Virus record (IMG/VR): IMGVR_UViG_3300009082_000006
Coordinates: 1 to 49,709 of that record
Source of the DNA: a virus
Reading direction: 5' to 3' (one strand)
Length of the DNA: 49,709 nucleotides
A program made the translations under genes and the position numbers. The notes beneath the pieces were generated by a model. The model made no database searches and was not told the DNA's origin. It saw only the letters and a program-made list of their open reading frames with translations. This document shows, piece after piece, positions 29,483 through 41,206 of the stretch. Position 1 is the stretch's first letter; each line of letters begins with the position of its first letter.

Positions 29483-29971
29483 TCACCATATGAAATCCGC
29501 GCGGCGATAAATCCGCGCGCGGTCCATCTTGATGAATGCATTCTCGCGGATCACCGATCCGCCGTTGCAATTGTCCTGCGTTCGCGTTTCCTTGACCCGA
29601 TAATCCGCGACGATTTCGCCCGCAGCATTCGCGATGGTGATCACCAGCGTGACTTCATCGGGGATCAGATAGCAGACCCCGACGAACGGGACGCAAAGCG
29701 CGCGGGCGATCGCCGCGCCCCTTTCCATTTTGGAAAATGTCAGAATCCATTCGTTTCCAAAATTTCCGCGCAATTGCTGGAAAGACATTTCCCGCGCCTT
29801 TGCCTCGAATGCCGCGCTGATCGATCGCCCGTCGCGGCTCAGGAAAAACCCGTCGATATCGGCCGAAGTTTCCTGCGGGGTTTCAACGTATTGCCGGCCG
29901 ACATAGGAAAGCCCGACGCGCGCATCTTCGACCGCTTTCCTTCCCCTTTCCGATAGAACATCAAGCCCCAT
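29483..29971 (-). CDS. Putative PD-(D/E)xK nuclease (162 aa)
   Basis: Residues 36-60 read TSADIDGFF ... ISAAFEAKAREM, which fits the D-(x)n-E-x-K core (D38 or D40, E56, K58) of the PD-(D/E)xK nuclease fold, followed by helical and beta segments. It is the last gene of the leftward replication/recombination block. The start at 29971 has a strong AGGAGGGGAAGG ribosome-binding site and overlaps the upstream gene by 11 bases. The specific substrate is unknown; a role in recombination or in degrading host DNA is possible. Confidence 0.55.
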   Translation of the reverse strand: MGLDVLSERGRKAVEDARVGLSYVGRQYVETPQETSADIDGFFLSRDGRSISAAFEAKAREMSFQQLRGNFGNEWILTFSKMERGAAIARALCVPFVGVCYLIPDEVTLVITIANAAGEIVADYRVKETRTQDNCNGGSVIRENAFIKMDRARIYRRADFIW

Positions 29972-30239
29972 CCTTCCCCTCCTTTCGTTTCCATGCCCGA
30001 ACAATCCACGGATGCGCCGTCAGCGCCGCATTAAAGCCAACAGGCCCGCCGATTAGCACCGCGGCAAGCTGCGACAAGCTGGCGTCCGGAACGGCCCGCC
30101 ACAGCGTTAATTGCGCAAGCCCGATCGCGATCGCGGTCATACTGCCAAGCCAGCGCGCCCGATGGATGACGTTCTGTTGCTGGAACACCAGCAGAAAGAC
30201 CGTCGCGAATGCCGATGCGAAAAGGATCGCGTGGGTCAT
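29961..30239 (-). CDS. Small multi-span membrane protein (92 aa)
   Basis: Two to three hydrophobic stretches are present: MTHAILFASAFATVFLLVFQ, LGSMTAIAIGLAQLTLW, and LAAVLIGGPVGFNAALTA. The C-terminus is charged (RAWKRKEGKDGA). I recall closely similar short phage proteins. A holin is possible but the lysis genes are elsewhere. ATG 30239 overlaps the upstream stop (ATGA), coupling it to the DpdA-like gene. Confidence 0.65.
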   Translation of the reverse strand: MTHAILFASAFATVFLLVFQQQNVIHRARWLGSMTAIAIGLAQLTLWRAVPDASLSQLAAVLIGGPVGFNAALTAHPWIVRAWKRKEGKDGA

Positions 30240-30985
30240 GACTCGCCCGCCAAAATGGACAGTTCGATTTGTGGGTGATCGATCCAGACCGGCGCGCTGT
30301 TGAATGCCTCGATCCTTTCCGCGATGATCGCCGCGCGCTGCCAATTCGTCGGCGGCATATACATGCCGAAGCGATTCGCCGCTGAACTGTTCACCGCGGC
30401 ATTCGTGCTGTCAGCGCTTGCCAGCGGAAGTCGGCTGAATATCTCAGGATCAAGCATGCGAAGCCCGTGAAGCCTGCAGCGCGGCCGACCTTCGGCATCG
30501 CATATGACTGCCATCGCTTCGTTCATGCGGCGCCACCAGCCCGCGGTCCCGGGCGTCGCCCATTGTCCAGAACTGCCGATCGCGACCGTCCTGAAATCGA
30601 TGCTCAGGCGCGCAAGTCGATCAAGCGATTCGTGAAGATGCCAGACGGGAACCCCGAAGCGGATCAGCCCGGAATCGGCCCACTGGTAGATCAGCGAATC
30701 ATTCGCCCATTCGTCGCCGTCGATGACATCGGGGATCAATGCCCAATCGAAGCCCGGGTGCAGGCACCATTCGCGAACCCACGCGATATAGCCCGGGACA
30801 TCGAGAGTCCCGCCTGATTTCCAGACCGTGAAAGCGCCATTGTCCAGAATGAAGGATTGACAGGCATCGGCAGCGGCGCCGATGTCCTCCTGCCGCGGGA
30901 ATGGGATCAGGGCGTGGCGCCCGATCATAAAGCGCGCCACGTCCTGCCGCGGACCGCCCATCGGGGTGCCGTGGTAATGGATCAT
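30236..30985 (-). CDS. tRNA-guanine transglycosylase-like protein, DpdA-type (249 aa)
   Basis: The pattern fits the transglycosylase TIM barrel that swaps guanine for a 7-deazaguanine base: ILDNGAFTVWKSGG (D48 at the general-acid position of the family's DSGGF), WALIPDVIDGDEW (D86), TVAIGSSGQW, then RLHGLRML (173-178) and LASADSTNAAV, where D192 sits at the place of the catalytic nucleophile. The length suits phage DpdA-like proteins and is shorter than the roughly 370-residue tRNA enzyme. No genes for preQ0 synthesis are present, so the base would come from the host. The target, DNA or tRNA, is not shown. The ATG overlaps the previous stop (ATGA). Confidence 0.55.
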   Translation of the reverse strand: MIHYHGTPMGGPRQDVARFMIGRHALIPFPRQEDIGAAADACQSFILDNGAFTVWKSGGTLDVPGYIAWVREWCLHPGFDWALIPDVIDGDEWANDSLIYQWADSGLIRFGVPVWHLHESLDRLARLSIDFRTVAIGSSGQWATPGTAGWWRRMNEAMAVICDAEGRPRCRLHGLRMLDPEIFSRLPLASADSTNAAVNSSAANRFGMYMPPTNWQRAAIIAERIEAFNSAPVWIDHPQIELSILAGES

Positions 30986-31191
30986 TTCGCCTCCCGCGCG
31001 CCGCCTGATCCTTCGGCCTTTTCCTTCAGCCATTGATCGACATCGCTGACGCGCCATGCCCAAAGCTTCCCCATCTTGAAAGGCGTCGGGATGCTTTCGC
31101 TTTTGGCGATGATCGCCAGCCGGATCGCGCGCTCGGTGCGGCCCAGCTTTCGAGCGATGTCGGCGACATATAGAACGTCAGCCCCGGGCAT
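30982..31191 (-). CDS. Small MerR/AlpA-like helix-turn-helix protein (69 aa)
   Basis: ADVLYVADIARKLGRTERAI is a helix-turn-helix start of the excisionase/AlpA kind, followed by the wing-like GKLWAWRVSDVDQWL. The start at 31191 was chosen because the conserved part begins immediately after it; it overlaps the upstream gene by 14 bases. No integrase is present, so regulation of the block rather than excision is more likely. Confidence 0.65.
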   Translation of the reverse strand: MPGADVLYVADIARKLGRTERAIRLAIIAKSESIPTPFKMGKLWAWRVSDVDQWLKEKAEGSGGAREAK

Positions 31192-39067: not shown

Positions 39068-39306
39068 TGGCGGAATTCGATCGAATCGTCACCCTGCGCG
39101 ATCTTGCGAATCAGGACCCGGCGGAAATGCTTTCCGGATATCGCGCCGGCCTGAATGGCGATCCGGAACCCGGAAGCGACAAAAGCCGGGGGTTCTGGCA
39201 CGGCTGGCTGAATGGGATGGTCGATAGCGGAAGGCGCGAAAAGGATCAGGCGCAGGCAATCCTCGCGGCTCGATATTCAGAAGCGGCAAGGCTTCCGGTT
39301 CAGTGA
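39067..39306 (+). CDS. Rmf/CrpP-like small protein (79 aa)
   Basis: The motif MLSGYRAGLNGDPEPGSDKS then RGFWHGWLNGMVD resembles the Rmf/CrpP fold (GYxAGxxG ... FWxGW xxG). In bacteria Rmf helps pair idle ribosomes; phage members have unknown roles. The ATG overlaps the RusA stop (TGATG). The C-terminus is a charged helix. Confidence 0.6.
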   Translation: MAEFDRIVTLRDLANQDPAEMLSGYRAGLNGDPEPGSDKSRGFWHGWLNGMVDSGRREKDQAQAILAARYSEAARLPVQ

Positions 39307-39328
39307 TTCGTTGGCGAATGGGGGTGAA

Positions 39329-39700
39329 ATGCAGCAAATAATCGAAGAAATCTCAGAAGTCGTCGGAATCGGGGCGGCGTATGAAATCGCTTGCCGATGG
39401 GGAAACGGTGAACTCTATGTCCCGATCAAGGCGACGTTGACGCATCCGATATCGCTCACCATCGGCCTCGAAGCTGCGCGCAAGCTGTCGGCCGTGTTCG
39501 GCGGTGAAAGGCTTGAGATTCCGATCGAGCGCAACGTCCTGAAGGATCTCCGGAACGAAGAAATCAGAAAGGCCCGGGTCGAGCGCGGTGAAAGCTTGGG
39601 AAAGATCGCCCGGGACTTCGGGCTGAATCGGGCAACCATCGTGATGATCTTGCGCAAGGCCGGCGTGATCGAAACTGAATCCCGGGAGGATGTCGCTTGA
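39329..39700 (+). CDS. Mor-family transcription activator (123 aa)
   Basis: The protein matches the Mu Mor/C family: GAAYEIACRWGNGELYVPIK, RNEEIRKARVERGESLGKIA, and RDFGLNRATIVMILRKAGV as the DNA-binding helix-turn-helix. In Mu, Mor and C activate middle and late promoters, including the promoter of mom. Here the gene overlaps the ParB-like gene and lies directly upstream of the Mom-like gene. Likely targets are late promoters; the twin palindromes at 4266 and 5346 are candidates by inference only. Confidence 0.8.
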   Translation: MQQIIEEISEVVGIGAAYEIACRWGNGELYVPIKATLTHPISLTIGLEAARKLSAVFGGERLEIPIERNVLKDLRNEEIRKARVERGESLGKIARDFGLNRATIVMILRKAGVIETESREDVA

Positions 39701-40380
39701 GCAATAAATCCCGCACAGAAAAGGCGCCGGCCGCGGATAAACCCGGGCAATGGGCTGCGAATGCGATCGAGCACTGGTCCCTTGATCGGCTGATCCCCTA
39801 CGCGCGGAACAGCAGGACGCATTCGGATGAACAGGTCGCGCAGATAGCGTCCAGCATCAAGGAATTCGGATTTACGAACCCGATCCTTGCCACCAGCGAT
39901 GGCGATATCGTCGCCGGTCATGGCCGGCTTTCCGCTGCGATGCGGCTGAAGCTTCAGACCGTCCCGGTCATCATCATCGATCATCTTTCCCCGGCGCAGC
40001 GTCGCGCGCTGGTGATCGCCGACAATCGAATCGCGCTGAATTCCGGGTGGGACTTCGATATGCTTTCCGTCGAACTGGATGAACTGAATGACCAGCAGTT
40101 CGACCTTTCCATCCTTGGATTCAGCCCGACCGAACTTGCCGACCTGATCGGATCGCCGGCAACCCCGCTTGACGGTATGCCGAATTTGCCTGAAGGCGAT
40201 CGGGAACCGTTTCAGCAGATGACGTTCACCCTTCACGATTCGCAGGCTGAAACGGTGAAGCGCGCCCTCGAAGTCGCCCGCGGCATGGGCGATTTCACTG
40301 GATCGGAAAACGAGAACGGGAACGGGAACGCTTTGGCCCGCGTCTGCGAAGTTTTCCTGCAGGGGAATTCCGATGACTGA
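39697..40380 (+). CDS. ParB-like nuclease-domain protein (227 aa, TTG start)
   Basis: Residues about 27-95 are a ParB/Srx-type domain: LDRLIPYARNSRTHSDEQVA, SSIKEFGFTNPILATSDGDI, and VAGHGRLSAAMRLKL with the GHGR motif (residues 74-77). The rest of the protein lacks a methyltransferase domain, which some relatives carry. It ends SENENGNGN-rich. Such ParB-like proteins often accompany phage DNA-modification genes; here the next gene is Mom-like and overlaps by 8 bases. TTG 39697 follows GGGAGGATGTCGC. Confidence 0.8.
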   Translation: MSNKSRTEKAPAADKPGQWAANAIEHWSLDRLIPYARNSRTHSDEQVAQIASSIKEFGFTNPILATSDGDIVAGHGRLSAAMRLKLQTVPVIIIDHLSPAQRRALVIADNRIALNSGWDFDMLSVELDELNDQQFDLSILGFSPTELADLIGSPATPLDGMPNLPEGDREPFQQMTFTLHDSQAETVKRALEVARGMGDFTGSENENGNGNALARVCEVFLQGNSDD

Positions 40381-41206
40381 AGCCCGGGCGAAGGACATCA
40401 GGGTCGCGCCGATTTCGTCGGCTGATGCCGCAGCGCTGGTCAAGCGGGTGCATTACAGTGGGAAGGTCGTCCAGAATTCGCAGCTTCACCTCGGCGTTTT
40501 CCTGAATGGAAAGCTTGAGGGCGCCATGCAGTTCGGGCCGTCGCTGGATAAGCGAAAGACGCAGGGCATGGTTGAGGGAACCGCTTGGAATGGATTTCTC
40601 GAACTGAACCGGATGGCATTCTCGGAAAAGCTTCCGCGGAACAGCGAAAGCCGGGCGATATCGATCGCGCTGAAGATGATCCGCAAGCATTACCCGCACA
40701 TCGAGTGGATCATCAGCTTTGCGGATGGGACGCAATGCGGCGACGGGACGATCTATCGCGCAAGCGGATTCGTCTTGACCAGCATCAAGAAAAATACCTC
40801 GATCTGGCGCGCGCCCGATGGCAGCACGGCGACCGACCTTAGCCTGCGGCTCGGGCTGCAGGCGAAGAAATCGGCAACCATCAGCAAGACCACGGTGACG
40901 AAGGGCAAAGCGATCACTTCGACCGGCGCGTCATCGATGAAGGGCTTTCGCGAAGCCGGGTATGCGCCGATGCCCGGGTATCAACTGCGGTATATCTATT
41001 TCCTGAACCCGGCCGCGCGCGAAAGGCTGACGGTCCCGATCGTGCCTTTCGACAAGATTGACGCGATCGGGGCGGGAATGTATAAAGGGCAGCGCATTGA
41101 TCGAGCATCAAGGCGCCCGAAGCAAGCGATGACCGGCCTCCCTCCGGAACAGCGGCGGTGTAACACCGACCCGGGCGCTCCATCCATTCAAGGGGAAGCC
41201 GAATAA
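40373..41206 (+). CDS. mom: Mom-like adenine modification enzyme (277 aa)
   Basis: Residues 1-150 fit the Mom family of the acyl-transferase (GNAT-like) fold: KRVHYSGKVVQNSQLHLGVF, GFLELNRMAFSEKLPRNSES, and IISFADGTQCGDGTIYRASG. Mu Mom converts adenine in DNA to an N6-methylcarbamoyl form, protecting phage DNA from restriction. The C-terminal third is basic and repeats Lys/Thr-rich patches (SATISKTTVTKGKAITSTGA), perhaps for DNA contact. It follows the ParB-like gene and precedes the terminase, so DNA would be modified just before packaging. Activity and site specificity are not shown. Confidence 0.75.
   Translation: MTEARAKDIRVAPISSADAAALVKRVHYSGKVVQNSQLHLGVFLNGKLEGAMQFGPSLDKRKTQGMVEGTAWNGFLELNRMAFSEKLPRNSESRAISIALKMIRKHYPHIEWIISFADGTQCGDGTIYRASGFVLTSIKKNTSIWRAPDGSTATDLSLRLGLQAKKSATISKTTVTKGKAITSTGASSMKGFREAGYAPMPGYQLRYIYFLNPAARERLTVPIVPFDKIDAIGAGMYKGQRIDRASRRPKQAMTGLPPEQRRCNTDPGAPSIQGEAE

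Follow-up and report, generated by a model that had tools for sequence, protein, structure and literature searches.

A short stand-alone DpdA-like transglycosylase of the singleton group, encoded with a Mom-family gene in an uncultured phage

Main finding

The window, the whole 49.7-kb stretch of DNA analysed here, derives from an uncultured phage, may be incomplete, and encodes a short stand-alone DpdA-like transglycosylase of 249 amino acids, which probably exchanges guanine in phage DNA for a 7-deazaguanine; with no preQ0 pathway of its own, the phage would rely on the host to make or import the precursor. The gene adds a member to the already known group of singleton DpdAs, and its product is a confirmed but little-studied enzyme.

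An intact dpdA gene under purifying selection

The dpdA-like ORF is the single intact gene in its interval and runs on the minus strand from 30985 to 30236, with its start codon at 30983–30985, its stop codon at 30236–30238, and a translation beginning with MIHYHGTPMGG and ending with LSILAGES. A GGAGG ribosome-binding site, read from the sequence, precedes the ATG at 30990–30994 on the same strand. A sequence-only reading of this DNA had placed the gene at 30236–30985, and these coordinates were right; a plus-strand reading of the interval was ruled out, the frame being closed. Between dpdA and its closest copy, carried by the near-identical fragment L003, 12 of the changes were synonymous and 3 non-synonymous (dN/dS ~0.07), and the median dN/dS among relatives of the gene was near 0.09; dpdA is under purifying selection and is a real, maintained gene.

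Both neighbours overlap dpdA through ATGA. Upstream, the stop of a small helix-turn-helix/excisionase-like ORF (30982–31191, minus strand; frame open to 31341, the true start being uncertain) overlaps the dpdA start, and its 119-aa form matched phrog_6355 (E 3e-8) and phrog_66 (E 2e-6) over residues 45–118. Downstream, the start of a 92-aa membrane ORF (29961–30239, minus strand) overlaps the dpdA stop; this ORF matched the holin family phrog_7045 (E 3e-10) and was left as holin-like, its candidacy as a transporter having been rejected because the Pfam scan of the window contained no Vut_1. Among the fetched loci, a homologue of this membrane ORF stood at the same place only in L003. The same minus-strand run also holds a 162-aa ORF (29483–29971) with a D...EAK pattern resembling a PD-(D/E)XK nuclease and no Pfam or PHROG match. 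Searches of the window found neither a tRNA nor a close phage.

Family identity, active site and predicted structure

The window protein matched PHROG 887 (queuine tRNA-ribosyltransferase) as its sole PHROG family, over residues 1–230 with an E value of 1e-63, and the DpdA of phage 9g, which inserts 7-deazaguanine in DNA (PMC6884629), matched the same family (E 2e-98). In the comparison with DpdA and TGT profiles that the sequence-only reading had proposed as a check, a profile built from 50 short-family sequences aligned with 9g-type DpdA by hhalign at a probability of 99.0 and an E value of 9e-18, whereas Pfam TGT (PF01702) matched neither the window protein nor 49 relatives and hhalign against a single E. 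coli Tgt gave no match and was uninformative. Searches of Pfam, NCBIfam and PDB sequences with the window protein returned no credible match, and the 49 relatives likewise had no Pfam match. Relatives turned up in 104 records of phages and in at least 592 viral contigs.

The four motifs singled out from the sequence, LDNGAF (D48), IPDVIDGD (in which the conserved Asp is D86), HGLRML (H173) and ASADSTN (D192), all occur in the order given, and D48, D86, P113, H116, H173, P187, D192 and S193 were invariant in 68/68 representatives, a set filtered at 80% redundancy that included 9g, Dp-1, Rosebush-type and Bipper proteins. Given the PHROG 887 match, the many relatives and these invariant residues, the order of the motifs is not due to chance. 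The minus strand holds the codons of the predicted general acid/base Asp48 (30842–30844; aligned with 9g D72), the predicted substrate-binding Asp86 (30728–30730; IPDV), His116 (30638–30640), His173 (30467–30469; aligned with 9g H196) and the predicted nucleophile Asp192 (30410–30412; aligned with 9g D215). His173 is the counterpart of DpdA His196, which is invariant in alignment A3 and which, in 9g numbering, separates DpdA from DpdA2 in the literature. The DpdA2 of Vibrio phage nt-1 shares a TGT-type barrel with the window protein but lacks this conserved histidine, so that the presence of H173 sets the window protein outside DpdA2.

An AlphaFold2 model built with the family alignment (pLDDT 92.4) adopted an eight-stranded TIM barrel with strands at residues 2–6, 24–28, 44–48, 79–83, 114–116, 133–137, 171–174 and 190–193, and placed the invariant residues at or just past strand ends, with Asp48 at the C-terminal end of strand 44–48, Asp86 after strand 79–83, His116 on strand 114–116 and Asp192 in strand 190–193. 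The predicted fold is thus a (β/α)8 barrel of the TGT superfamily with the catalytic Asp residues at strand ends, these placements being read from DSSP strand positions. Neighbours in a viral fold library were queuine-transferase/DpdA-like phage proteins, including a 464-aa nt-1 protein as a distant one. In the PDB fold search, archaeosine TGT had the highest TMq (0.56) among the 50 matches listed, but generic TIM barrels ranked above it by E value, so the fold search alone is not proof of a TGT. The PHROG shared with 9g, the hhalign result, the conserved catalytic residues and the structure model together bear out the assignment as a stand-alone DpdA-like transglycosylase.

Placement among DpdA groups

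A maximum-likelihood tree, in which the root and long branches are uncertain, placed a 100/100 branch between all the short singletons (window, Epa33, BTP1, AB3P2, HK106, SEN1, MED16, 7-11 and Pam5) and six DpdAs whose phages carry preQ0 genes. Within the singleton clade, which contains MED16 and 7-11, the window protein groups with Epa33 and with Pseudomonas and Burkholderiaceae prophages. Its closest annotated relative, together with Pseudomonas prophage proteins, is Epa33 gp11 (241 aa, 69% identical), whose gene adjoins a C5-cytosine methylase and an ASCH gene that are both absent from the window. The pathway-type DpdAs of 9g, Seuratvirus and BcepGomr resemble the window protein in their catalytic residues, His196 counterpart and PHROG 887 membership, but they are ~310 aa long, have their own FolE, QueD, QueE and QueC genes nearby, replace a large share of G and lie on the other side of the 100/100 branch, 9g DpdA being only 19% identical to the window protein.

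Singleton DpdAs form a large and mostly uncharacterised group of phage DNA-modification genes. They correspond to the 76 dpdA-only phages that Hutinet et al. 2019 set apart as their third group, including a gammaproteobacterial cluster whose possible functional divergence was left open (PMC6884629), as was DNA modification by such singletons. Two members of the window's clade have dpdA as their only pathway gene and carry dADG in virion DNA, at 354 per million nucleotides in MED16, with m6dA in the same DNA (PMC8306585), and at 50 per million nucleotides in 7-11 (PMC6884629); by our arithmetic from these values, this amounts to ~33 and ~9 dADG per genome, respectively. The dADG of MED16 had little effect on restriction digests (PMC8306585). 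Neither source reports a dpdA deletion in MED16 or 7-11 (PMC8306585, PMC6884629), so dADG is not formally tied to dpdA in these phages. MED16 gp38 and the 7-11 protein, singletons of the DpdA/TGT_1 cluster, share with the window protein the PHROG, the length class, the invariant Asp/His set and the lack of precursor genes, whereas sequence identity is only moderate and the window dpdA has no adjoining DNA methyltransferase, its Mom gene lying elsewhere in the record. As a separate observation, OR850331.1, 1.7 kb long and named Staphylococcus phage SA 1298 Kay, holds a dpdA that scores the same as those of Salmonella P22-like phages, and the record is probably mislabelled or contaminated.

Precursor supply and adjoining transporters

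The claim that the genome has no precursor genes held for the 49.7-kb record: a QueC search was empty, and FolE, QueC, QueD and QueE were absent from the Pfam matches of its main ORFs. A QueC match in one dpdA phage record (23 bits, profile positions 3–69 only) was judged not to be QueC. Strong QueC was present in 30/33 bacterial genomes carrying dpdA relatives, the exceptions being L117 (an incomplete-looking MAG), L118 (Rhizobium subbaraonis) and L119 (a Devosia MAG), which gave no QueC match or short weak ones and had no QueD-type PTPS match.

Vut_1 (PF02592) corresponds to the YhhQ/QPTR queuosine-precursor transporter family (PMC11130926), and Vut_1 genes stood directly beside the short dpdA, upstream or downstream and often overlapping through ATGA, in every sub-clade. 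Such neighbours were found in the window clade (L009, L012, L014, L018, L021 and L026), the BTP1 clade (L178 and L185), the HK106 clade (L271), AB3P2 and 17 loci of the Pam5 clade; ten of the adjoining genes were checked by Pfam. Overlapping or abutting examples lie at L014:4531–5004, L021:4525–5004, L119:5678–6211, L185:2468–3004, L271:2483–3001 and L083:5720–6193. Among virus records, Vut_1 occurred in 6/50 with dpdA, always adjacent to it, versus 0/49 comparison records, one of which does contain a dpdA (one-sided p 0.014). YhhQ homologues in phages had been noted by Hutinet et al., without correlation to a phage group. A dpdA-adjoining Vut_1 is present in each of the prophages of L118 and L119, hosts without QueC and QueD that appear unable to make preQ0, and the two genomes hold further Vut_1 genes, which are salvage transporters; this host-level contrast, drawn from two related prophages, is suggestive only.

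The window itself has no VUT match. The proposal that host preQ0 is used gains indirect backing from relatives, through QueC in most hosts, salvage transporters in two of the other three, and phage VUT genes adjoining dpdA. The repeated pairing of dpdA with a transporter is the most useful additional observation of this analysis and gives a direct test of precursor dependence.

Proposed reaction and its target

By analogy with TGT, Asp192 would attack the nucleotide C1', guanine would depart with Asp48 as acid/base, and the incoming base, held by Asp86, would displace the enzyme. The TIM-barrel guanine transglycosylase would in this way cut guanine from phage DNA and insert preQ0 or a derivative, giving dPreQ0 or dADG. 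Four further 7-deazaguanine derivatives were reportedly described by Cui et al. in 2023. A second hypermodification of the window phage DNA is plausible. With only 0.02% and 0.13% of G modified in the two measured relatives, the modification, if real, may be sparse and not a bulk replacement.

Genes beside dpdA in relatives bear on the target. The MED16/SEN1 clade has 34 loci in which a D12 adenine methylase occupies position −1 of dpdA, and in some 27 loci of the window clade C5-cytosine methylases lie near dpdA, many of these loci being near-copies of one another; the window record has no DNA methyltransferase match. These neighbours and the dADG measured in MED16 and 7-11 favour DNA as the target, and the methyltransferases and transporters jointly support the use of a host-made or imported 7-deazaguanine on DNA. 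For the window enzyme, we infer the choice of DNA over tRNA, the identity of the base and the sparse density. In the SEN1/MED16 clade, a D12-class adenine methylase lies immediately upstream of dpdA at L217:2012–2977, as in many prophages of the clade, suggesting a recurrent cassette for A plus G modification.

The enzyme might instead act on host or phage tRNA or on other RNA, tuning translation during infection. Its fold and active site are common to tRNA TGTs, the family annotation is queuine tRNA-ribosyltransferase, the phage, with no preQ0 pathway, would draw on a precursor that normally goes to tRNA, and an adjoining VUT would serve tRNA or DNA alike. However, a full TGT was already present in 17/17 host genomes tested, the window protein matches neither Pfam TGT nor E. 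coli Tgt, it clusters with phages that have dADG in their DNA, and DNA methyltransferases adjoin dpdA in relatives, which together make an RNA target unlikely. An intact enzyme that leaves no detectable product, through a host without precursor or ill-timed expression, is comparably improbable. The mycobacteriophage singleton Orion, whose DNA is unmodified and for which preQ0 is made by neither the phage nor its host (PMC6884629), offers a precedent, and dpdA is patchy, occurring in one of 30 phages with related portals. The purifying selection, the complete catalytic set and the tight overlap with both neighbours nevertheless speak against a silent passenger, as does the precursor supply seen in the hosts of relatives.

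Exchange of guanine for a host-derived 7-deazaguanine in phage DNA thus remains the preferred explanation, and a tentative variant of it is that a diverged singleton performs active base exchange at only a few sites, serving packaging or replication or concealing the DNA from a single restriction system. The handful of modified bases per genome in MED16 and 7-11, the functional divergence that Hutinet et al. left possible, and the 100/100 branch between the singleton clade and the pathway phages are consistent with site-specific marking, whereas poor precursor supply or late expression may alone explain the low levels, and our literature search found no mapping of sites.

Co-occurrence with a Mom-family gene

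The Mom-like gene noted in the sequence-only reading is real: a Mom-family adenine-modification gene at 40373–41206 on the plus strand matched PF25680 (E 1.1e-54; 185.7 bits against a cut-off of 27.1) and phrog_1384 (E 4e-49), and its product is ~36% identical to phage Mu Mom. It lies 9 kb from dpdA on the opposite strand. That reading had also called the pairing uncommon and suggested that both purines could be altered. The rarity was borne out by counts, in which many records may be fragments: PHROG 887 occurred in 0/19 Mom-bearing records and Mom above its cut-off in 0/20 dpdA records, one sub-cut-off match falling in a broken frame, and of the 30 records whose portal genes are related, one had dpdA, two had short Mom matches and none had both. 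Joint action found no sign in these co-occurrences, on which a functional dpdA–Mom module was rejected; the rare pair looks like mosaic assembly rather than a module, and the combination in the window phage is probably accidental.

Two-base hypermodification by Mom and 7-deazaguanine was not found in the records searched. Marks on both purines of one phage DNA have a precedent in the m6dA and dADG of MED16 (PMC8306585), and alteration of both purines in the window phage, with Mom acting on adenine and the stand-alone DpdA putting a host-derived 7-deazaguanine at guanine, is conceivable though doubtful. If active, the window phage would be a rare natural case of Mom and 7-deazaguanine marks together, and its doubly marked DNA would be useful for work on modification-blocked restriction enzymes and for long-read mapping. 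Directly before Mom lies a ParB-domain ORF (the two spanning 39697–41206), with a Mor-type activator just ahead of it at 39212–39700, and Psychrobacter phage vB_PmaS_Y8A, the best phage match, has a ParB/sulfiredoxin gene at the same place.
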